Made by a program: the position numbers and the translations under genes. A stretch of 31,306 nucleotides of DNA, from the IMG/VR virus record IMGVR_UViG_3300004369_000554, positions 1 to 31,306 of that record, one strand, 5' to 3'. The stretch is from a virus. Under the pieces are notes generated by a model. The model was given only the letters and a program-made list of their open reading frames with translations. It was not told where the DNA came from and ran no database searches. Shown one piece after another: positions 3,217 to 29,624 of this stretch (the stretch's first letter is position 1; every line of letters starts with the position of its first letter).

Positions 3217-6018
3217 ATGGCCAACACACAAGTATCACCAGGTGTATTGGTCCAGGAGAGAGATCTAACTAACACTATTAATGCGACGGTCGATAACGTC
3301 GGCGCTATTGTTGGAACTTTCGCCCAAGGACCTGTTGAAGAGATCGTAGATATCTCTTCCGAACGCCAACTCATCGAGATCTTCGGTGAGCCCAATGACC
3401 AGAACTACGAATATTGGTTCTCTGTCGCACAGTTTATGCTGTACGGTGGAACCGTTAAAGTTGTCCGTGCTGACAACTCCGCTTTGAAGAACGCAATCGA
3501 CACTGCGACCTTCACCCAAACAAACTTTACCGCTATCGACACGACTCTTACCGTTGCCGATTCCACGGGATTTGATGTTGGTGACCTCCTCCTGATTGAT
3601 GCTGAAATCCTGGTTATCACTGCAATCTCTGGTAAGGACATTACGGTTACTCGCGGACAGTACAGCACATCTGCTGCTTCTCACGCTGCTGGCGCTAACA
3701 TCACTCTGATCGAGCCTGCTGGTACTGCTACTACCCTGAACCAGGGTTCTACCATGAACAGCACTGAAACCGCTATCACGGTTACCTCAGTTCCTACTCT
3801 GGGTGCTACCACTAACTCCTACATCGAGATCGATGACGAGATCTTGCAGGTTACTGCTGTTAACGGCAATGACCTGACTGTTGCTCGTGCTCAACTCGGT
3901 ACTTCTGCTGCTTCTCACACTGACGGCGTTGCCGTTGACCTGAGAACTGTCACCGCTGCTAAGACTACCATCGACGAGGAAACCAGCACTGGTATTACTC
4001 CTCCTAAGATCAAGAACATCGATGAGTATGAAGCAAACGTAGAAGACGGTGCCAACAACTGGAAGTGGGCTGCTCGTACTCCTGGTACGTATGGCAACAG
4101 CATCCGCGTGGTAGTGACCGACGCTGGTCCTGACCAAATTCTGAACCTCGCTGAGCCTGCTGACGCTGCTGCTGAGTGGCAGATGACCCCTGGCGCTGCT
4201 GTTAACTACTCTAACGCTAACATCTACTCCAAGGTGTATTCCTACTCCTTGATCGTAACTCTCGCCCCTGGTGCTAGCTTGGTTGGTGAGTTCAACGCTG
4301 ACAACTTCTTCACTGCCAATGCAGGTAACGTAACTGGTCGCGTTGTTGCATACGACGCTGCTAAGAGAAAAGTTGAACTGACTGTTGACTCAACCTCTTC
4401 CGATCACCTGTCCGTTGGCGACACCCTTACCGAACTCGGTAACTCTGGTGGTTCTGCTGGTGCCGCTACTGGCGACACTGCCGTAATTGCTGCTGTACAA
4501 CGTCGTCTCGCCGTTGTCCTGAACGAAGGTTCTAAGCAGTTCGCCGCCAACCTGACCATCAAGGATTCCTCTACTGTTGTCACTGGTGTCAACGAAGGTG
4601 ACGACGTAGTTATCACTGCTGTTGAGTCTGAGTACATCAGCAGAGTGTATGGAAACAACCAGAAGTGGTCTTCTATTGGTGATCGTCCTGGTACTTCCGT
4701 TTACGCTTCTGAGCGTGGTGGTTTCCGCGACCTGATGCACATCCTCGTCCTCGACGGCGACGGTGGTATCACTGGTACACCTGGTGCTGTTCTTGAAAAG
4801 TTCCTGAACGTATCCAAGGCACGCGACGCCAAGACTCCTCAGGGTTCCAACCTGTACTACAAGGATGTCATCAAGGCAAACTCCGCCTTCCTGTTCTGGG
4901 GTGCTCACGAAAACATCAAACTCTTTGATGTTGACTCTAACCTGACTGGTGATATTGGTGGTGCCGTTCTGAACCGTAAGTTTGACCTGTTCAAGAGCAC
5001 CGAAGCGATCAAGTCTATCGACGATCCTACTGGCAGCAACCTTCTGTCTGTTCCCCTGGTTAACACCAAGGGCACCGCTACCTTGAAGTATGAACTTCGC
5101 GGTGGTCTTGACGGTTACTCTGCTGAGCGTGACAAGCTGTTCGATTCCTACGACCTGTTCTCCGATCCTGAGACTGAGGAAATCGATTATGTGATCATGG
5201 GTCCTGCCATGAGCAACGATGATGATTCTGTCGCCAAGGCACAGAAGATGATCGACCTTGCCGAAACCCGCCAGGACTGCATGGCATTCGTTTCTGCTCC
5301 TCGCGACGCCATCATTGGTGTTCCTAGCAGCGGCGAAATCGTCAACAAGACTGTCGAATACTTCGACAAACTGTCTAGTTCTTCTTATGTTGTTTTCGAC
5401 AACAACTATAAGTACATCTATGACAAGTATAACGACAAGTATCGTTATCTTCCCATGAACCCTGACGTTGCTGGTCTCATTCTTGACACCGCAATCGAAG
5501 CAGAACCTTGGTTCTCGCCTGCTGGATTCAGCAGAGGTCAGGTTCGTAACGCTGTGAAACTGGCATACTCTCCTCTGAAAGAAGAGAGAGATCGTCTCTA
5601 CACCTCTCGCGTCAATCCTATCGTCGCATTCCCTGGCGAAGGTATTGTACTCTACGGTGACAAGACTGGTCTTTCTCAACCCAGTGCATTCGACAGAATC
5701 AACGTCCGTCGTCTGTTCCTGGTTATCGAGAGAGCAATCAGTGATGCTGCCAAGAGCATGTTGTTTGAAATCAACGATGAGTTCACTCGTCAGTCCTTCA
5801 AGGACATCGTTGACCCATACCTGAGAGGCGTTCAGTCTCGTCGTGGTATTGAAGATTATCTGGTGGTTTGTGATAGCAGCAACAACCCTGATGACGCCGT
5901 TGATCGTGGCGAGTTCTTCGCGGAAATCTTCGTGAAGCCTACCCGCTCCATCAACTTCATCACCCTGCGCTTCACTGCAACCCGTACTGGCGCTTCGTTC
6001 GCTGAGATCGTCGGTTGA
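3217..6018 (+). CDS. 18: Contractile tail sheath protein (gp18)
   Basis: The 933-residue sheath subunit polymerises around the tail tube and contracts on infection. The N-terminus (SPGVLVQERDLTNTI, then VDNVGAIVGTFAQGPVEE) and the C-terminal 'FTRQSFKDIVDPYLRGVQSRRGIEDY' region are hallmark gp18 segments that form the inter-subunit handshake. It is about 270 residues longer than T4 gp18 (659). The extra length sits in the surface-exposed middle. It includes two consecutive homologous beta-rich units at residues about 109-165 and 185-242, both ending in 'TSAASH.(A/D)G'. Alanine-, glycine- and threonine-rich, C-ending codon use is typical of highly expressed late genes. It is preceded by a late promoter and a good AGGAG site, and followed by a UUCG hairpin. 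Confidence 0.97.
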   Translation: MANTQVSPGVLVQERDLTNTINATVDNVGAIVGTFAQGPVEEIVDISSERQLIEIFGEPNDQNYEYWFSVAQFMLYGGTVKVVRADNSALKNAIDTATFTQTNFTAIDTTLTVADSTGFDVGDLLLIDAEILVITAISGKDITVTRGQYSTSAASHAAGANITLIEPAGTATTLNQGSTMNSTETAITVTSVPTLGATTNSYIEIDDEILQVTAVNGNDLTVARAQLGTSAASHTDGVAVDLRTVTAAKTTIDEETSTGITPPKIKNIDEYEANVEDGANNWKWAARTPGTYGNSIRVVVTDAGPDQILNLAEPADAAAEWQMTPGAAVNYSNANIYSKVYSYSLIVTLAPGASLVGEFNADNFFTANAGNVTGRVVAYDAAKRKVELTVDSTSSDHLSVGDTLTELGNSGGSAGAATGDTAVIAAVQRRLAVVLNEGSKQFAANLTIKDSSTVVTGVNEGDDVVITAVESEYISRVYGNNQKWSSIGDRPGTSVYASERGGFRDLMHILVLDGDGGITGTPGAVLEKFLNVSKARDAKTPQGSNLYYKDVIKANSAFLFWGAHENIKLFDVDSNLTGDIGGAVLNRKFDLFKSTEAIKSIDDPTGSNLLSVPLVNTKGTATLKYELRGGLDGYSAERDKLFDSYDLFSDPETEEIDYVIMGPAMSNDDDSVAKAQKMIDLAETRQDCMAFVSAPRDAIIGVPSSGEIVNKTVEYFDKLSSSSYVVFDNNYKYIYDKYNDKYRYLPMNPDVAGLILDTAIEAEPWFSPAGFSRGQVRNAVKLAYSPLKEERDRLYTSRVNPIVAFPGEGIVLYGDKTGLSQPSAFDRINVRRLFLVIERAISDAAKSMLFEINDEFTRQSFKDIVDPYLRGVQSRRGIEDYLVVCDSSNNPDDAVDRGEFFAEIFVKPTRSINFITLRFTATRTGASFAEIVG
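3541..3942 (+). repeat. Two tandem homologous units inside gp18
   Basis: The first unit (about 3541-3711) and second unit (about 3769-3942) encode related 57-58-residue segments. Shared anchors are 'T.LTV', 'ID.EIL.(V/I)TA..G.D(I/L)TV.R.Q..TSAASH'. They are divergent at DNA level, so this is an old duplication rather than a recent one. Confidence 0.75.
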
Positions 6019-6849: not shown

Positions 6850-6871
6850 AGAAGAAATTGCGCTCACGTTG

Positions 6872-8479
6872 ATGTCTCAACTATTTGGTTATTCGTTAGA
6901 AAGGAAGAAGGATCAGGCAACTGGTCCTTCTTTTGTTCGTAAGGAGTCTGATGATGCTGCCCAGCCCATCGTTGCTGGTGGATACTTTGGACAGTATGTT
7001 GAGATGGGTGATGCCGCTAACAAGGCATCGGAAGCAGACCTGATCGGTAGATATCGTGAGATGTCTCTCCACCCTGAGTGTGATGCTGCAATTAATGATG
7101 TTGTCAATGAAGCGATTGCTGGGGATCTGAATGATCACCCCGTTGACATTGACCTTCAACACCTGAAAGTATCCCAGACACTTCGCAATAGAGTCCGCGA
7201 AGAGTTTGAGAACGTTCTGGTTCTTCTAGATTTTGATAGAAAAGCATACGATATCTTCCGTCGCTGGTACATCGATGGACGCTTGTTCTATCATAAGATG
7301 ATCGACACTAAGAATCCTAATGCTGGTATTACGGAACTTAGATACATCGATCCTCGTAAGATCAAAAAGGTTGTCGAGTTTGACAAACCCAAAGATCGTC
7401 TCCAACCTATCGATCCTCAGACTGCTTCTATTGTACCCAAGTCTGTTGAGTATTACATCTACTCACCTAAGGGTCTGAAAGGTTACGAGAACAATGGCAT
7501 CAAAATTGCGCCAGATGCTATCACGTACTGCCACTCTGGTCAGTTGGATATGCAACGCAACTATGTGTTGTCACACCTTCACAAGGCAATTAAGGCACTC
7601 AATCAACTTCGCATGATTGAGGACTCTCTGGTCATTTATCGTCTGAGCAGAGCACCCGAACGTCGCATCTTCTACATTGATGTAGGTAACCTCCCTAAGC
7701 AAAAGGCAGAACAATACCTGCGTGAAGTGATGTCTCGCTATCGTAATAAGTTAGTATACAATGCTGACACTGGCGAGATTAGAGACGATAAGAAATTTAT
7801 GTCTATGTTGGAAGACTTCTGGCTTCCGAGACGCGAGGGTGGGCGCGGCACAGAAATTTCTACCCTTCCTGGCGGGCAAAACCTTGGAGAACTGGAAGAC
7901 GTTAAGTATTTCCAGAAGAAACTGTATAGATCTCTGAATGTCCCAGAGTCTAGATTGGAATCTGAAAGCAGTTTCAATGTCGGTCGTAGTGCCGAGATTA
8001 CCAGAGACGAAGTTAAGTTCCAGAAGTTCGTCACCAGACTTCGTAAGAAGTTCAGTGATCTCTTTCACGATCTTCTGAGAACTCAACTGGTTCTCAAAGG
8101 CGTCGTCACTCTCGAAGAGTGGGACGACATGAAGGAGCACATTCAGTATTCCTTCATTGCTGACAACTACTTCTCCGAAATGAAGGAGAAGGAAGTCATG
8201 AACGAGAGACTCGCTCTCTTGCAACAGATGGATCCTTACGCTGGCAAGTATTTCTCTCTGGAATATCTTCGTCGTAACATTCTGCGTCAGTCTGATGCTC
8301 AGTTCCAAGAGATCGATAAGCAGATGGCAGAAGAGATTGAAGCTGGTCTGGTTGTCTCTCCTGCTGAGATGCAACAGATGGAGAAAGCACAGATGGAATT
8401 GTCTCTGATGCCACCCGAACCTCCGCAAGAAGAGGAACAGGGTATCGATCCAAAAGACTTTGAAAAAGGAAACATCTAA
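6872..8479 (+). CDS. 20: Portal vertex protein (gp20)
   Basis: This 535-residue dodecameric portal initiates head assembly, docks the terminase and later joins the tail. Characteristic segments include 'VEMGDAANKASEADLIGRYREMSLHPECDAAINDVVNEAI', 'FRRWYIDGRLFYHKMID', 'LRYIDPRKIKKV', the region used for cyanophage g20 marker typing, and 'RAPERRIFYIDVGNLPK'. A stem/clip region with 'FWLPRREGGRGTEISTLPGG' follows. Length is close to T4 (524). The ATG at 6872 is preferred to a TTG one codon earlier. Its stop lies within the late promoter of the next gene. Confidence 0.97.
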   Translation: MSQLFGYSLERKKDQATGPSFVRKESDDAAQPIVAGGYFGQYVEMGDAANKASEADLIGRYREMSLHPECDAAINDVVNEAIAGDLNDHPVDIDLQHLKVSQTLRNRVREEFENVLVLLDFDRKAYDIFRRWYIDGRLFYHKMIDTKNPNAGITELRYIDPRKIKKVVEFDKPKDRLQPIDPQTASIVPKSVEYYIYSPKGLKGYENNGIKIAPDAITYCHSGQLDMQRNYVLSHLHKAIKALNQLRMIEDSLVIYRLSRAPERRIFYIDVGNLPKQKAEQYLREVMSRYRNKLVYNADTGEIRDDKKFMSMLEDFWLPRREGGRGTEISTLPGGQNLGELEDVKYFQKKLYRSLNVPESRLESESSFNVGRSAEITRDEVKFQKFVTRLRKKFSDLFHDLLRTQLVLKGVVTLEEWDDMKEHIQYSFIADNYFSEMKEKEVMNERLALLQQMDPYAGKYFSLEYLRRNILRQSDAQFQEIDKQMAEEIEAGLVVSPAEMQQMEKAQMELSLMPPEPPQEEEQGIDPKDFEKGNI

Positions 8480-8483
8480 ATAG
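8476..8483 (+). promoter_or_regulatory. Late promoter upstream of the core protein gene
   Basis: CTAAATAG, followed by TATTA, overlaps the portal stop codon (TAA at 8477-8479) and lies about 21 bases before the next ATG at 8504. It shares the core of the other late promoters here. Confidence 0.55.
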
Positions 8484-8503
8484 TATTACCAGAACATAAC
8501 ATT

Positions 8504-8755
8504 ATGCCTTCCGACACATCCCTTGAAATTGTAAATGCACTGTTTGCTGGACAGAAAGATCTTTCTGACTACGTTGACCAGCAAATGAAAACCCTTGCCA
8601 TGGATAAGATTGGTGACATGAAAAAGGATGTCGGTGCAAAGATGTTTGCAGTTCCCGAAGACGGACCTGAGAACACTGAGCAACCCGAAGACGCCATTCC
8701 CCCCGACCAACCCACAAAGGAACCAACTGATGAAACTGATAACGGAGAAGATTGA
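8504..8755 (+). CDS. 67: Prohead core protein, gp67-like
   Basis: This 83-residue acidic protein lies between portal and prohead protease, exactly where T4 has gene 67, a minor core component degraded during maturation. The N-terminal half is a predicted amphipathic helix (SLEIVNALFAGQKDLSDYV, then KTLAMDKIGDMKKDVGAKMF). The C-terminal third is a Pro/Glu/Asp-rich disordered tail. Sequence similarity to T4 gp67 is weak, so assignment rests on position, size and composition. It overlaps the protease gene by 26 bases. Confidence 0.7.
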   Translation: MPSDTSLEIVNALFAGQKDLSDYVDQQMKTLAMDKIGDMKKDVGAKMFAVPEDGPENTEQPEDAIPPDQPTKEPTDETDNGED

Positions 8756-9377
8756 AGACGCGAGAATCGTAATTACCGAGGGTAAGAACGGTAAGCGTAA
8801 CACCTTTATCGAAGGTGTTTTTCTTCAAGCAGAAATCTGTAACCGCAACGGTCGCATGTATCCCATGAGAACCATGGAGCGTGAGGTCCAGAAGTATAAC
8901 GAAAATTTCGTTAAGACTGGCCGTGCTCTGGGTGAACTGGGTCACCCCGATGGTCCTACCATCAACCTCGACCGTGCGTCTCACCTTATTACATCTCTCC
9001 AAAGAGAGGGTAACAACTTCATCGGTAAAGCAAGACTGCTGGAAACCCCGATGGGTAAGATCGCCAAGCAACTGCTTGACGAGGGTGTGAAGTTGGGTGT
9101 GTCTTCACGCGGTCTCGGTTCTATCAAGGAAGAGAACGGTGTCAAGATCGTTGGCGAGGATTTCATGCTCGCTACTGCTGCTGATATTGTAGCAGATCCC
9201 TCTGCCCCTGACGCATTTGTCAATGGGATCATGGAAGGAAAAGAATGGGTGTGGGCAAATGGCAACATCGCTGAATCTAAGATCGATGAGATCAAAAGAC
9301 GAATCGATAATGCCGCGCAATCCCAGTTAGAAGAGAGAAAAATTTCCGCATTTTCAGAGTTTCTGAAAAATCTGTAA
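8730..9377 (+). CDS. 21: Prohead core scaffold protease (gp21)
   Basis: This 215-residue serine protease has the herpesvirus-assemblin-like prohead protease fold and cleaves scaffold and capsid proteins before DNA filling. Diagnostic segments are 'GRMYPMRTMEREV', 'GELGHPDGPTINLDRASH' with the catalytic His72, and 'GVSSRGLGS' with the nucleophile at Ser125 or Ser126. T4 gp21 is 212 residues. The ATG at 8730 has AAAGGA upstream and gives the family length. The frame is open further upstream inside gene 67, but that extension lacks homology. Confidence 0.93.
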   Translation: MKLITEKIEDARIVITEGKNGKRNTFIEGVFLQAEICNRNGRMYPMRTMEREVQKYNENFVKTGRALGELGHPDGPTINLDRASHLITSLQREGNNFIGKARLLETPMGKIAKQLLDEGVKLGVSSRGLGSIKEENGVKIVGEDFMLATAADIVADPSAPDAFVNGIMEGKEWVWANGNIAESKIDEIKRRIDNAAQSQLEERKISAFSEFLKNL

Positions 9378-19685: not shown

Positions 19686-19715
19686 AGACCCTGTGGGAAA
19701 TCTCCCATGGGGTCT
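19686..19715 (+). terminator. Long hairpin between speD and the VWA gene
   Basis: AGACCC pairs with GGGTCT and the helix continues inward through two G-T wobbles to TGGGA/TCCCA around an AATC loop, about 13 bp in all. No T-run follows. It may be a weak terminator or an RNA stability or processing element. TATACT just downstream (19716) resembles a -10 box but has no -35 partner. Confidence 0.4.
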
Positions 19716-19743: not shown

Positions 19744-21921
19744 ATGTACAACACCCAAGAAATCAAAGGTAACCTCGCCCGCCTGCTTGCCACCGAGAAC
19801 CTGCTGGTGCAGCACAAGCAAGTCTCTACTGCTTCCTTCGATGTTGAGAAGCGTGTCCTGACTCTCCCTCTGTGGGACCGTGCAAGCAATATAGTGTACA
19901 CCATGCTGGTTGGTCATGAGGTCGGTCATGCCTTGTACACCCCCAACGATGACAGTCTTGACAACCTGCCTTGCCCCAAGGCATATGTCAACGTGACTGA
20001 GGATGCTCGCATCGAGAAACTGATGAAGCGTAAGTACCCTGGTCTCACCAAAGACTTCTATGGTGGTTATCAGGAACTCAATGCTCAGGATTTCTTCTGC
20101 ATCAAGGATGAAGACCTGACTAAGATGACTCTCATCGATCGGATCAACCTACACTACAAGATCGGTGCATATGCACTGCTGCCTTTTGAGGACGCTGAGA
20201 CCCCTCTACGTGACGCTGTGGGCGTTGCTGAGACGTTTGAAGAGGCGATTGCCGCCGCTGTTGCTATTTACGAGTATGCAAAACAGCAGCAGGAAAAGCA
20301 AAAGTCTGTCACTCCGTCACCTCAGGGTAACCAACAATCTTCTGGCATGACTCACGAAGAGATGCTTGACAAAGCACAGGAACGTGAGCAGCAGAACGAA
20401 GCATCTGGTGAAGGTGACGAACCACGCCCCTGGTTTACTGACAGTGACCCTGAGGAAGACGATCGTACTAATCGTAACTTCGACAAAGGTGACGCTGATC
20501 TGGACACTCCGTCCTTCGATTACGCTGAACCTGACATTGACAACGTTGCAACTCAGGACAACTTTGATACCAAGGCACAGTCTCTAATCAACAAGGGTGC
20601 CCTTCCCCCTACCTATGTCACTTTTCCTAAGTTTGACATGAGTAAGATCATCACCCCTAACGTTGCTCTGTGGGATGCAGCAGAGGTGTGGTGGGATGAA
20701 TACTATTCCGATCATGAGTCTCCTTTTGCTGCTGTTGATGCTGATTTCAACGAGTTCTGCAACAAGTCTGCTAAGGATGTGAACTACCTGGTCAAGGAGT
20801 TTGAGTGTAAGAAGTCTGCTTCTGCCTATGCACGGTCTACAACCTCCCGTACTGGCGTTCTTGACCTTAGCAAACTGCATACCTACAAGTTCAACGATGA
20901 CATTTTCAAGAAGGTGACTCGTACTCCTGATGGTAAGAACCATGGTCTGATCTTCCTACTTGATTGGTCTGGTTCTATGGCACAGGAGATCTTTGAGACT
21001 GTCTGTCAGGTCATCAACCTTGCTCAGTTCTGTAAGAAGGTTGGTATCCCCTTCGATGTGTACTCTTTCGTCACTGATCACCAGCAGAATCGCTTCTTCG
21101 GTCTCGAATCTGATGCTGAATGGAAAGATCTTCCTGATCCTCAGACCCGCAATGCTGGTGAGTTCTGGTTGGATAAGCGTTTCAAACTGGTCAACCTGCT
21201 GTCTAGCGAAGGTAACAACAAAAACTTCAAGCGTCAGTGTAAGTTCCTCTATCGTGTTGCCAACTATTGGAAACCTCAGAGTTACTACAACTTCCGTCCT
21301 GCTCCTCCTTCCTTCCTTGGTCTGGGTGGCACTCCTCTGAATGATGCTCTCGTGGTTATGCGTCAGTATCTTGGCGAGTGGCAGCGTAAGCGGGGTGTTG
21401 AGAAGACTCATCTGCTGGTTCTGACTGACGGTGAATCCCAGTGCATTGGATACACGAAGTCTCCTGAGGATTCGGTATACTTTGATCGTCCTTATGTCTC
21501 TACTCTGCCTTACAACACTGTTGTTCGTGACAATGGTCGTTACCACACTGGCATCGAGAACGCTAACTCTTCTGCTACTGCTGGTCTGTTAAAGATCCTC
21601 CGTGCTGCATACCCTCAGTGCAGTGTTCTTGGGTTCCGTATCTGTCAAAATCGTTCTATGGTCCACTATCTGCATGTCCTGGGTATCTGGGACACCGATA
21701 AATACTCCAAAGATTTCACCAAGAACAAGTCTACTATTGTTCACAACAGTCCTTACACTGAACTCTATGTCTTGAAGTCCAATTCATACAGTTCTGACAC
21801 TGAAATGGAGGTTGTTGACGACGCAACCAAGACTCAGATCAAGTCAGCATTTATGAAGTCCTTGAAGTCCAAGTCTGTCAACCGAAGGATGCTTACATCG
21901 TTCGCAGGACAGATCGCATAG
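19744..21921 (+). CDS. CobT-like protein: HExxH metallopeptidase-like domain plus VWA domain
   Basis: This 725-residue protein has an N-terminal zincin-like region with 'VGHEVGHALY' (His58, Glu59, His62) and a following 'NVTEDARIEKLMKRKYPG' helix that supplies a plausible third zinc ligand. A Gln/Ser/Glu/Asp-rich linker follows (about residues 180-265). The C-terminal von Willebrand A domain has a complete MIDAS: 'DWSGS' (Asp407, Ser409, Ser411), Thr530 in 'GGTPLNDAL', and Asp562 in 'LTDGES'. The next gene encodes a MoxR/CobS-type AAA+ ATPase. AAA+/VWA pairs are known in metal chelatases (CobS-CobT, ChlI-ChlD) and MoxR chaperone systems. The real substrate is unknown. ATG at 19744 is chosen because it opens the conserved region. 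A strong terminator follows. Confidence 0.85.
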   Translation: MYNTQEIKGNLARLLATENLLVQHKQVSTASFDVEKRVLTLPLWDRASNIVYTMLVGHEVGHALYTPNDDSLDNLPCPKAYVNVTEDARIEKLMKRKYPGLTKDFYGGYQELNAQDFFCIKDEDLTKMTLIDRINLHYKIGAYALLPFEDAETPLRDAVGVAETFEEAIAAAVAIYEYAKQQQEKQKSVTPSPQGNQQSSGMTHEEMLDKAQEREQQNEASGEGDEPRPWFTDSDPEEDDRTNRNFDKGDADLDTPSFDYAEPDIDNVATQDNFDTKAQSLINKGALPPTYVTFPKFDMSKIITPNVALWDAAEVWWDEYYSDHESPFAAVDADFNEFCNKSAKDVNYLVKEFECKKSASAYARSTTSRTGVLDLSKLHTYKFNDDIFKKVTRTPDGKNHGLIFLLDWSGSMAQEIFETVCQVINLAQFCKKVGIPFDVYSFVTDHQQNRFFGLESDAEWKDLPDPQTRNAGEFWLDKRFKLVNLLSSEGNNKNFKRQCKFLYRVANYWKPQSYYNFRPAPPSFLGLGGTPLNDALVVMRQYLGEWQRKRGVEKTHLLVLTDGESQCIGYTKSPEDSVYFDRPYVSTLPYNTVVRDNGRYHTGIENANSSATAGLLKILRAAYPQCSVLGFRICQNRSMVHYLHVLGIWDTDKYSKDFTKNKSTIVHNSPYTELYVLKSNSYSSDTEMEVVDDATKTQIKSAFMKSLKSKSVNRRMLTSFAGQIA

Positions 21922-21929
21922 TGTCCTCA

Positions 21930-21953
21930 GGGGGTCTTCGGACCCCCTTTTTT
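21930..21953 (+). terminator. Intrinsic terminator after the VWA gene
   Basis: GGGGGTC and GACCCCC form a perfect 7-bp stem on a TTCG loop followed by six T. It has the same architecture as the terminator after gp23. Confidence 0.92.
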
Positions 21954-21960
21954 CTTGTAT

Positions 21961-21975
21961 GATTACTAGGTAATC
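21961..21975. promoter_or_regulatory. Palindrome before the CobS-like gene
   Basis: GATTAC and GTAATC form a perfect 6-bp inverted repeat around TAG, 14 bases before the start codon. TATGAT at 21958 resembles a -10 box overlapping it, though no -35 is visible because the terminator occupies that position. It could be an operator or a weak leader hairpin. Confidence 0.35.
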
Positions 21976-21989
21976 GACAGACACCCACA

Positions 21990-23090
21990 ATGCCTCGCAC
22001 CGCTGACGTGACCACCAACGAAATCATTGACTTCCTCACCCGCAACTTCGGTCAAGACGTTCAAACTCCTCACCTTCTCCGTGCAGCAGACCACTTCGAT
22101 GTCTCTTATCCTACTATTACTAAGCGACTTGATTCCTATAAGTCTGGTCGTGGCAAGTGGTGTCTGACTGCACAAGAAATCGAGAAGACTTTCAATGCTC
22201 CTTCTGCTACACCTGCTGTTCCCGATCGGGATTCTACTAACTTGATTCCATCCAAAGATAATAATTTTGTCCCGTTCGGTAACTTTGCTGATGTAAAGAA
22301 GATTATCAAGTCTGGTATCTTCTATCCTGTCTTCATCACGGGTCTGTCTGGCAACGGTAAGACCTTCGGTGTCGAGCAAGCATGTGCTACCCTCGGTCGT
22401 GAACTGATTCGTGTCAACATTACGGTAGAAACTGATGAAGATGACCTTATTGGTGGTTTCCGCCTTGTGGACGGTAACACTGTTTGGCACAATGGTCCCG
22501 TCATTGAGGCACTCCAACGTGGTGCAGTGCTTCTTCTCGATGAGATCGACCTTGCTAGTAACAAAATCCTCTGCTTGCAGTCCATTCTTGAAGGCAAAGG
22601 CATCTATTTGAAGAAGACTGGTGTCACTATCAACCCTGCACCTGGGTTCACTGTTGTCGCTACTGCCAACACTAAGGGTAAGGGCAGCGATGATGGTCGT
22701 TTCATCGGCACAAACGTGCTCAATGAGGCATTCTTGGAGCGTTTTCCTCTCACTTTCGAGCAAGAGTACCCTACTGCTAGCATCGAGACCAAGATGCTCA
22801 ACAACTACTGCAAGGAACTCAACTGCTGCGACGATGAATTCATCTCCAACCTCACTACTTGGGCAGAAATCATCCGTAAAACCTTCGCTGAGGGTGGTTG
22901 TGACGAGGTTATCAGCACCCGTCGCCTGGTTCACGTCATCCGTGCCTTCGCTATCTTCAACAACCGTCTGAAAGCGATCAAACTGTGCCTGAATCGCTTC
23001 GATGACGAGACCAAAGCATCATTCCTTGAACTTTACAGCAAGATTGATGCTAAGATTGACCTTGATGAGTCCCCTCTGCTCCAAGACTGA
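21990..23090 (+). CDS. cobS: CobS/MoxR-like AAA+ ATPase
   Basis: This 366-residue ATPase belongs to the class annotated cobS in cyanophages. Walker A is 'GLSGNGKT' (residues 118-125). Walker B is 'LLLDEIDLAS' (Asp184, Glu185). The MoxR-type segments 'DEDDLIGGFRLVDGNTVWHNGPVIEAL' and 'VVATANTKGKGSDDGRFIGTNVLNEAFLERF' (arginine finger region) are clear. Residues 1-70 are distinct: 'TNEIIDFLTRNFG' and 'FDVSYPTITKRLDSYKSGRGKW' resemble a winged-helix DNA-binding domain rather than the bacterial CobS N-terminus. The adjacent VWA gene is the likely partner. Cobaltochelatase activity is not supported here because no CobN is in the window. Confidence 0.88.
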   Translation: MPRTADVTTNEIIDFLTRNFGQDVQTPHLLRAADHFDVSYPTITKRLDSYKSGRGKWCLTAQEIEKTFNAPSATPAVPDRDSTNLIPSKDNNFVPFGNFADVKKIIKSGIFYPVFITGLSGNGKTFGVEQACATLGRELIRVNITVETDEDDLIGGFRLVDGNTVWHNGPVIEALQRGAVLLLDEIDLASNKILCLQSILEGKGIYLKKTGVTINPAPGFTVVATANTKGKGSDDGRFIGTNVLNEAFLERFPLTFEQEYPTASIETKMLNNYCKELNCCDDEFISNLTTWAEIIRKTFAEGGCDEVISTRRLVHVIRAFAIFNNRLKAIKLCLNRFDDETKASFLELYSKIDAKIDLDESPLLQD

Positions 23091-23653
23091 TGCTGTATCG
23101 TACACAAATCCTTGACGACTCGGGTGTATCCCGAGTCTTAGGTCAAGTTGACCCTATTTTGGTCACAAATCCCCTCAAAAACGTCAACGAACACAAAGGG
23201 ATTGATCCAGAGTGGTTAGACGAACAGATTGCTAACTCTCTTCAACCAGAACTTACACTATCCAGCGGCAGGAGTGGGTTTACCTACAAAAAATACACTG
23301 CTGGACAGGATTATGACTGGCATCAGGACGAGATTACTAGCATCGATGGTCTGAGATTGGATATATCTACCACACTTTTCCTCAATGACCCGACTGATTA
23401 CGAAGGTGGTGAGTTAGAGTTGCGATTTGGTGACTTTGGTGTTAGTATTAAACTACCCGCAGGGTATGCTGTCATATATCCTACGGGCATCATCCACCGT
23501 GTGAAACCAATCATCTCTGGTGTTCGCAAAGTGGTCCATTGGTGGGATGAATCCAATGTTCAGAACCCATTTACACGCGACGCTATCGTCCAGTTGTCCA
23601 AACTCCCTGAACGAGTTGATCTTCACACCGCTACACTTGAACGATTCTGTTAA
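23090..23653 (+). CDS. 2OG-Fe(II) oxygenase, PKHD/prolyl-4-hydroxylase type
   Basis: This 187-residue non-haem iron dioxygenase couples 2-oxoglutarate decarboxylation to hydroxylation. The iron triad is His78 and Asp80 ('YDWHQDE') and His136 ('TGIIHRVKPI'). Arg146 in 'GVRKVVHWW' is placed to bind 2-oxoglutarate. 'YEGGELELRFGD' and 'PAGYAVIYP' are typical of the family. It is close in size to PiuC-like hydroxylases, which are about 225 residues. Substrate is unknown and could be a protein or a nucleotide. The start shares a base with the cobS stop (TGATG). Confidence 0.88.
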   Translation: MLYRTQILDDSGVSRVLGQVDPILVTNPLKNVNEHKGIDPEWLDEQIANSLQPELTLSSGRSGFTYKKYTAGQDYDWHQDEITSIDGLRLDISTTLFLNDPTDYEGGELELRFGDFGVSIKLPAGYAVIYPTGIIHRVKPIISGVRKVVHWWDESNVQNPFTRDAIVQLSKLPERVDLHTATLERFC

Positions 23654-27978: not shown

Positions 27979-28164
27979 ATGTACGAAGAACTGAACTGTT
28001 TTGAAGAGGCGCTGAAACACTTTGGCACCAGAGTAGAAATTATCTGTGCTCTGGAATTATCAAGGAAAATCTCACCAGAAGATGCTTACAAACAAATTAA
28101 GGATGAGTTGAAAGAAGTAAAGAAGTGTCGTAAACTATTCAAAACCGAAGGTGAGTGTGAATGA
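27979..28164 (+). CDS. Unknown 61-residue helical protein after regA
   Basis: 'MYEELNCFEEALKHFGTRVE' followed by 'IICALELSRKISPEDAYKQI' and a lysine-rich C-terminal helix predicts two or three helices, soluble. Two bases separate it from regA and its stop overlaps the carbamoyltransferase ATG (ATGA). It has two N-terminal-half cysteines but no metal motif. No function is recognised. Confidence 0.72.
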   Translation: MYEELNCFEEALKHFGTRVEIICALELSRKISPEDAYKQIKDELKEVKKCRKLFKTEGECE

Positions 28165-29624
28165 AATTTCTTGGTTTGAGAGTCGAAGATCACGACTCTA
28201 ACATTTGTTATACTGATGGCAAGAAAGTTAAGTACCTCTCTACGGAGAGGTATTTTGGTATCAAGCACCATGGGTTAAATAACACATGGCAATGGCAGGA
28301 TCTTCTGGATGAATGGGGTATCCATATCTATGAACTGGATGCTATTGCGATCATCAGTGATCAGGTTGAGTTTGATAAAGGAGAACTGTACCGAGAGATT
28401 GATCTAGGTCTAGAATGTCGTTGTTTTGCAGTAGACCATCATTGGGCACACGTTCTGTCACAATGGCCAGTGGGTATCCCTTATACAAACTATGTGTTTG
28501 ATGGTTATGGTAGCAATGAAAGGTCTCATTCGCTATTCGTGAATAGAGAATTAGGTGTAGAGTACAATGTCAACAAGCATGGGTCCATCGGTATCGAGAT
28601 GGCGAAGGTTGGTGCTACCTTAGGACTGAAAGATGTGACCCCAGATGGTCTAGATCTTGCTGGAAAGGTCATGGGACTAGCAGCATACGGTATAATCGAT
28701 GAAGAATATTTTGAGAAGATGGACCAGTATCCTCTGAGTCAGATCAAGAAGATCTGGAACTATGATTCTTGGGATCGTAAGTGGGATAACGATTTTGATA
28801 TCAACTGGTTGAGAACTGTGCATGAACTCACGTCACAGAAACTTGCTGATCTATTAGTAGGTGTGGTTGATAATGTTTACTCTACTGATACCGTAGGATT
28901 TACTGGTGGTGTAGCACAGAATTGTGTGTTTGTGGGTGATGCTATCCAGAAGGGTGCTAAGTTGAGCACCATTCCACATGCTAATGACTGTGGTCTGTCG
29001 CTAGGTGCTGTTGAATTCTTGCGTCAGCATTTCCATGAAGAGGAATTTGACTCATCTGGGTTTCCGTTCTGGCAAGATGATGAGGGAACTGATGAAGTTA
29101 CTGATGATACTATCGTCACCATGGCAGAAGAGATTGCAGCAGGTAACATTGTTGGGTGGTATCAAGGACATGGTGAGATTGGACCCAGAGCACTGGGTAA
29201 TAGGAGTATTCTGTGCAATCCAAGGATCAAAAACATGAAGGATACTCTGAACAGTAGAGTCAAGCATCGTGAACACTTCCGTCCATTCGGTGCATCAGTC
29301 CTCTACGAGGATGTGCAGGAACATTTTGTGGGTGTATCGCAACCTATCCCCTGGATGAATGCATCATTCCAGTGTAAGGATGAGAGTCTTAAAGCAGTCA
29401 CTCACATTGATGGATCGTGCAGGATTCAGACGGTACAGGGAGATGGACAGTACGCTAGATTACTTCGAGCATACAAAGACCTGACGGGTTCTAGTGTCAT
29501 ACTGAATACGTCACTCAATCTGGGTGGTAAACCTATTGCATCAAAGCATTGGGAAGCGAAAGAATTGTTTTCCAAGACAAACATGGACTTTCTTGCCATT
29601 GGCAATGATGTATTACATAAATAG
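28161..29624 (+). CDS. Carbamoyltransferase, NodU/TobZ/CmcH-like
   Basis: This 487-residue enzyme belongs to the family that transfers carbamoyl from carbamoyl phosphate, through a carbamoyl-adenylate, to a hydroxyl acceptor. The N-terminal Kae1-like domain has the metal motif 'DHHWAH' (residues 92-97), 'TGGVAQN' (about 248-254) and 'NDCGLSLGA'. The C-terminal YrdC-like half shows 'GWYQGHGEIGPRALGNRSIL' (Gly341-Pro-Arg-Ala) and 'KHREHFRPFGASVL', then 'LNTSLNLGGKPI'. It is shorter than TobZ (about 570) but complete in motifs. The acceptor could be a sugar, a metabolite or a modified base. A perfect hairpin lies near its 5' end. Its stop lies in a late promoter. Confidence 0.92.
   Translation: MKFLGLRVEDHDSNICYTDGKKVKYLSTERYFGIKHHGLNNTWQWQDLLDEWGIHIYELDAIAIISDQVEFDKGELYREIDLGLECRCFAVDHHWAHVLSQWPVGIPYTNYVFDGYGSNERSHSLFVNRELGVEYNVNKHGSIGIEMAKVGATLGLKDVTPDGLDLAGKVMGLAAYGIIDEEYFEKMDQYPLSQIKKIWNYDSWDRKWDNDFDINWLRTVHELTSQKLADLLVGVVDNVYSTDTVGFTGGVAQNCVFVGDAIQKGAKLSTIPHANDCGLSLGAVEFLRQHFHEEEFDSSGFPFWQDDEGTDEVTDDTIVTMAEEIAAGNIVGWYQGHGEIGPRALGNRSILCNPRIKNMKDTLNSRVKHREHFRPFGASVLYEDVQEHFVGVSQPIPWMNASFQCKDESLKAVTHIDGSCRIQTVQGDGQYARLLRAYKDLTGSSVILNTSLNLGGKPIASKHWEAKELFSKTNMDFLAIGNDVLHK
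28233..28256 (+). terminator. UACG-loop hairpin in the start of the carbamoyltransferase gene
   Basis: TACCTCTC and GAGAGGTA form a perfect 8-bp stem closed C-G on a TACG loop (UNCG type), followed by TTTT. It lies about 70 bases inside the coding sequence and could attenuate transcription running out of the replication operon. It may also be a chance outcome of codon choice. Confidence 0.4.
29616..29623 (+). promoter_or_regulatory. Late promoter before the terminal membrane-protein cluster
   Basis: CATAAATA overlaps the carbamoyltransferase stop codon and lies about 24 bases before the next ATG. It marks a return to late gene expression. Confidence 0.65.

Follow-up and report, generated by a model that had tools for sequence, protein, structure and literature searches.

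In cyanophages, cobS and cobT have been described as core genes, and the same account states that cobT was 'mistakenly annotated as a peptidase' (Liu et al., 2021, PLoS Biol, PMC8651126). In group 2.2 jumbo phages, pairs of a MoxR ATPase and a metallopeptidase-vWA protein have been described in a second paper, which proposes a role in virion assembly (Iyer et al., 2021, Viruses, PMC7824862). Lists of core auxiliary metabolic genes in cyanophages include cobS under vitamin B12, and surveys of the ocean count it, yet its function has been stated to be unknown (PMC9983427). Among cellular systems, alphaproteobacterial CobS-CobT (TIGR01650/TIGR01651; PDB 9uka, 21vu) joins an AAA+ ATPase to a partner made of the CobT N-terminal domain, an acidic linker and a VWA domain, a layout shared by the pair studied here. 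The MoxR/VWA activases NorQ-NorD and CbbQ-CbbO activate a metalloenzyme or rubisco.

We analysed one stretch of viral DNA of 31,306 nucleotides (the window), a fragment of a T4-like cyanophage. Its nearest isolate is Synechococcus phage S-WAM1, and the two share the gene order around the pair (Table 1). A sequence-only reading of this DNA had pointed to a 725-residue protein with an HEVGH motif, a charged linker and a full VWA MIDAS beside an AAA+ ATPase, and the open reading frames, motifs and conservation confirm this. The pair belongs to the cyanophage and haloviral cobST of Liu et al. (PMC8651126): the CobT-like protein matches phrog_459 ('peptidase') over its full length (E=1.3e-242), and the CobS-like ATPase does the same with phrog_249 ('porphyrin biosynthesis'; E=1.5e-137). 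The jumbo-phage pair, compared by its published description, has the same domain architecture and gene pairing, but it belongs to another phage group, was given a virion-assembly role and, in the accessible part of the paper, is not linked to CobT-N. The same reading had held that the partner of the cyanophage ATPase goes undiscussed. This was wrong, and the ideas of that reading are not new, because the CobST account (PMC8651126) and the MoxR/metallopeptidase-vWA account (PMC7824862) are both already in print. What this analysis adds is the link that joins these two accounts.

Table 1. Features of the gene pair in the window (positions are those of the whole stretch).
Feature	Position	Strand	Details
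CobT-like protein, 725 aa	19744..21921	+	N-terminal zincin-like/CobT-N domain, acidic linker, C-terminal VWA; ORF and translation
HEVGH, residues 58-62	19915..19929	+	predicted zinc ligands H58 and H62; predicted catalytic E59
N-x-x-E-D-x-R, residues 83-89	19990..20010	+	E86 or D87, in the glutamate helix, as predicted third ligand of the metal
Acidic disordered linker, about residues 190-259	20311..20520	+	pLDDT 30-43; rich in D, E, Q and S
VWA domain, about residues 398-690	20935..21813	+	Foldseek: VWA domains, among them that of NorD from NorQD; Pfam VWA weak
MIDAS DWSGS (D407, S409, S411)	20962..20976	+	completed by T530 (21331-21333) and D562 (21427-21429)
Intrinsic terminator AGGGGGTC(TTCG)GACCCCCT-TTTTTCTT	21929..21956	+	8-bp stem, TTCG loop, T-run
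CobS-like AAA+ ATPase, 366 aa	21990..23090	+	AAA_5, E=1e-18
Walker A GLSGNGKT, residues 118-125	22341..22364	+	core residues identical across 31 homologues
Walker B region LLLDEID, residues 181-187	22530..22550	+	conserved in 31 homologues

The CobT-like gene starts at the ATG at 19744, which gives exactly 725 residues; a GTG lies further upstream at 19693, and relatives begin at the ATG. We compared the protein with 41 non-redundant homologues that are 30-73% identical to it over full length. H58, E59, H62, N83, E86, D87, R89, D407, S409, S411, T530 and D562 are invariant in 41/41, while the codons of the zincin and MIDAS residues among them vary synonymously. Thus, these motifs are not due to chance. 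HExxH is found in 85 of 85 homologues, and an HExxH followed by a conserved downstream acidic ligand (H58, E59, H62, E86, D87) is the pattern of a zincin. Between speD and the CobT-like gene there is an imperfect inverted repeat, GACCCTGTGGGA-AATC-TCCCATGGGGTC (19686-19713), which the terminator scan did not report. The CobT-like gene of Pseudoalteromonas phage vB_Psh_XG4 lies across two frames (positions 6851-9108 of locus L144) with HEVSH in one ORF, which may reflect a frameshift, a split gene or a sequencing error.

The relation of this protein to cellular CobT became visible only through viral intermediates. The window protein did not match the CobT models TIGR01651, PF06213 or PF11775 at curated cut-offs, and only 4-5 of the 41 homologues gave matches to them, all weak. 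Searches of PDB sequences with the protein or its profiles returned nothing useful. Direct hhalign comparison of cyanophage and cellular CobT N-domains was just suggestive (p=0.0084 and 0.0029), so viral intermediates were needed. The viral CobTs of SSU5 (129.6 bits), CRP-810 (57.5), T5S1 (42.3) and RHEph10 (26.3) pass the PF06213 cut-off of 26.1 bits and carry HExxH within that domain, and each also carries an N-x-x-E-D-x3-E-R motif. The N-x-x-E-D-x-R of the window protein is aligned with the ED/EQ motif that viral and cellular CobTs have. A profile built from seven such viral N-domains, of which two lack HExxH, matched the cyanophage N-domains with E=4.6e-14, HExxH aligned on HExxH, and the cellular CobT N-domains with E=1.1e-7. 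The N-terminal domain is thus homologous to that of CobT through the viral CobTs. Cellular CobT has RGxxD-SMALK in the position of HExxH; it has lost the histidines and the glutamate but retains the RGxxD frame and the E further on.

On these profile comparisons, the phage 'peptidase' domain is CobT's own N-terminal domain (PF06213) and not an extra one. The sequence-only reading had called it an added peptidase-like domain, which does not hold: the domain belongs to CobT itself and keeps its predicted active site. Both database labels are thus partly right, since the protein is related to CobT and its N-domain has an intact predicted zincin site. The accessible part of the cyanophage cobST account (PMC8651126) does not mention a zincin site. 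In a search that fell short of most subscription journals, we found no paper identifying the phage peptidase domain as CobT-N.

The site has changed in some relatives. The CobT of Nican01 passes PF06213 (31.6 bits) but has lost HExxH, and the CobT of phage ANB28 likewise keeps the domain without the motif, as does every bona fide cellular CobT that we examined. Our tree forces three site changes, although it has several long branches and its deep order is unsure. From this tree, the changes are best read as losses, in cellular CobT, Nican01 and ANB28. As three lineages without HExxH retain the domain, catalysis would be dispensable in some relatives. Separately, we saw bacterial CobT-like VWA proteins at six loci that have intact HExxH and ED motifs and are distinct from cobaltochelatase CobT.

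The predicted topology of the N-domain fits that of a zincin. AlphaFold2 modelled the whole CobT-like protein at pLDDT 76 and residues 1-185 alone at pLDDT 90. The modelled N-domain has strands at 21-25, 31-33 and 38-42, a helix at 49-65 that carries HEVGH and a helix at 79-97 that carries the ED motif. In Foldseek searches of the PDB with this domain, zincins ranked first (selecase, ArdC and IrrE/PprI, with Wss1 lower), at E 0.3-2 and none significant alone. The whole model matched the NorD VWA and, among viral models, proteins from Gordonia phages and haloviruses that are annotated as CobT or VWA.

The ATPase scored 71.9 bits against the CobS equivalog model TIGR01650, far below the cut-off of 558.6, so both window proteins fall short of the equivalog cut-offs for the cobaltochelatase subunits. 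Solved CobS was among its top matches in a PDB sequence search (E=8e-22), and it also matches NorQ/CbbQ in sequence. With an AAA_5 ATPase that has Walker A and B and a VWA partner that has a full MIDAS, the pair belongs to the MoxR-clade AAA+/VWA systems. Downstream, the stop codon of CobS and the start of a gene for a 2OG-Fe(II) oxygenase overlap (TGATG, 23088-23092), as in S-WAM1, which suggests translational coupling. A carbamoyltransferase gene (PF16861, PF02543) is present at 28161-29624 of the window, and S-WAM1 has one too.

The distribution of the two genes bears out that they form a unit. In tblastn searches of 50,697 phage records, the CobT-like protein was found in 463 and the CobS-like protein, at a coverage of at least 80%, in 459. 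When compared as counts, the numbers per name were equal for both genes (Synechococcus 365, Cyanophage 61, Prochlorococcus 24). At 84 loci (80 from IMG/VR and 4 isolates), both genes were near each other in 66, nine loci ended too early and nine had no cobS in at least 3 kb downstream; this gives 66/75 among loci that reach far enough. In two of the nine apparent exceptions, a search of the whole contig found cobS about 10-17 kb off. Intervening genes are common, for example pcyA in P-SSM4. The pair is thus a known unit that almost every T4-like cyanophage carries. Genomes that routinely carry one gene alone, which would have spoken against a joint function, were not seen, given the 66/75 paired loci and the cobS found elsewhere in both tested exceptions. 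A mirror-tree comparison of both proteins with gp45, gp46 and gp47 revealed no specific co-evolution, as the partial correlations of 0.37-0.79 did not clearly exceed those of control pairs, and a scan of viral contigs with the ICP2 CobT as query found no relatives. We also considered the Staphylococcus Kayvirus ATPase as an instance of the same pair and rejected it because no VWA gene adjoins it; in the region concerned, positions 3707-5683 of locus L164, its neighbour is DUF7192. It is a related AAA ATPase without a CobT partner.

The intrinsic terminator between the genes is real, as judged from its folding (-16.3 kcal/mol, z=-2.4) and T-run, and sits in the 68-nt intergenic gap. Within about 110 nt 3' of the CobT-like gene, a terminator was found at 5/81 loci, all of them near relatives, and in 5/810 random windows. 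Thus, the terminator noticed in the sequence-only reading stands as a feature of this phage and its nearest relatives. The proposal that it sets the two genes at different expression levels was rejected as a family trait.

We propose a model, to which we give a probability of roughly one in two, in which the pair is a CobST-type AAA+/VWA remodelling machine whose CobT-like half has a catalytically complete zincin site and which acts near replication. The first part of the model concerns assembly: the CobS-like protein would form an ATP-driven ring, and the CobT-like protein would dock on this ring and hold a protein client through its MIDAS. The second part concerns the client, which may be cut, or else the zincin domain may serve as a regulated metal or peptide site while the ring remodels the client. 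The target would be a phage or host protein in the replication phase, and the machine would not primarily be a cobalt-inserting chelatase. A machine that remodels or cuts proteins appears more likely than a plain vitamin B12 gene because the partner retains the predicted zinc-protease site, which is gone from genuine CobT.

The hosts provide an argument for a different explanation. In the Prochlorococcus/Synechococcus family, CobN scored over the cut-off in 88 of 101 genomes, CobT was found in 0/101 and CobS over the cut-off in 0/101. The sole weak CobS match came from a single-cell genome that also holds a phage CobT gene, and it is probably the phage's own gene. Since these hosts have neither CobS nor CobT, the phage pair is not a set of copied host genes. 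This distribution fits the published proposal of a mosaic cobaltochelatase (PMC8651126), in which viral CobS and CobT would hijack host CobN and raise cobalamin or pseudocobalamin for nucleotide synthesis, and the homology to CobS and, transitively, to CobT agrees with it. However, the CobS score lies far below the equivalog cut-off, the window protein leaves the CobT models unmatched, and the CobT N-domain of the solved chelatase is dead where the phage N-domain is intact. Additionally, the ortholog in Pelagibacter phage HTVC008M nests within the cyanophage clade (99/97), and SAR11, to which its host belongs, is reported to be B12-auxotrophic (PMC9296465). CobT-type pairs also occur in Vibrio phages, such as that of ICP2, and the majority of Vibrio species are unable to make B12 (PMC11837498). 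We consider a mosaic chelatase unlikely. The earlier suggestion that the pair serves more than cobalamin synthesis gains support from the tested host family without CobS and CobT and from the ortholog carried by a phage whose host is auxotrophic for B12.

Two further observations concern cellular genomes. CobN was found in 0/52 genomes of a small-genome alphaproteobacterial family, a result that we do not rely on for Pelagibacter; the stretch read had a GC content of 35%, which is higher than the value we take to be expected for SAR11. In a sample of Pseudomonadota, 10 of the 37 genomes with a CobT match had no CobN over the cut-off, six of them with no CobN match, and the control genome of Caulobacter vibrioides has CobS and CobT and lacks CobN. 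Because of these genomes, cellular CobST may have a job outside B12 synthesis; alternatively, the genomes are incomplete.

The location of the genes bears on a third explanation. In Kyanoviridae the pair lies between gp46/47 and gp45/44/62, and in the unrelated phages ICP2, Nican01, SSU5, RHEph10, RHph_X66, ANB28 and T5S1 it lies near a DNA polymerase, primase or helicase. We regard these as associations with the replication phase, not as proof of a role in it. For group 2.2 jumbo phages, whose pair has this architecture, Iyer et al. (2021) proposed a virion-assembly chaperone with a peptidase, in which the pair would fold and trim structural proteins, by analogy with the MoxR-vWA tail system of Acidianus two-tailed virus, and our whole model does match the VWA protein of that virus weakly (E=3.6e-3). 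As the pair adjoins genes for replication and recombination rather than structural genes, both here and in seven other phages, we find such a role improbable. Least probable to us is a pure remodelling machine of the NorQD or RavA-ViaA type with a structural zinc site and no cleavage, which would suit the domains that persist without HExxH but not the general base E59, as invariant as the zinc ligands in 41/41 cyanophage-type proteins.

In sum, the remodelling machine with a complete zincin site is the reading we prefer. A CobT partner with an intact predicted zincin site reconciles the peptidase and CobT annotations and suggests an ancestry for the CobT N-domain. We tentatively extend this to the possibility that an AAA+-driven VWA metallopeptidase was the ancestor of cobaltochelatase CobT. 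The active form of that ancestor would persist as a machine that cuts proteins and is linked to replication, both in T4-like cyanophages and in many other phages. The cobS gene would hence not be a B12 auxiliary metabolic gene; if this is true, a gene tallied worldwide as a vitamin B12 gene is none.
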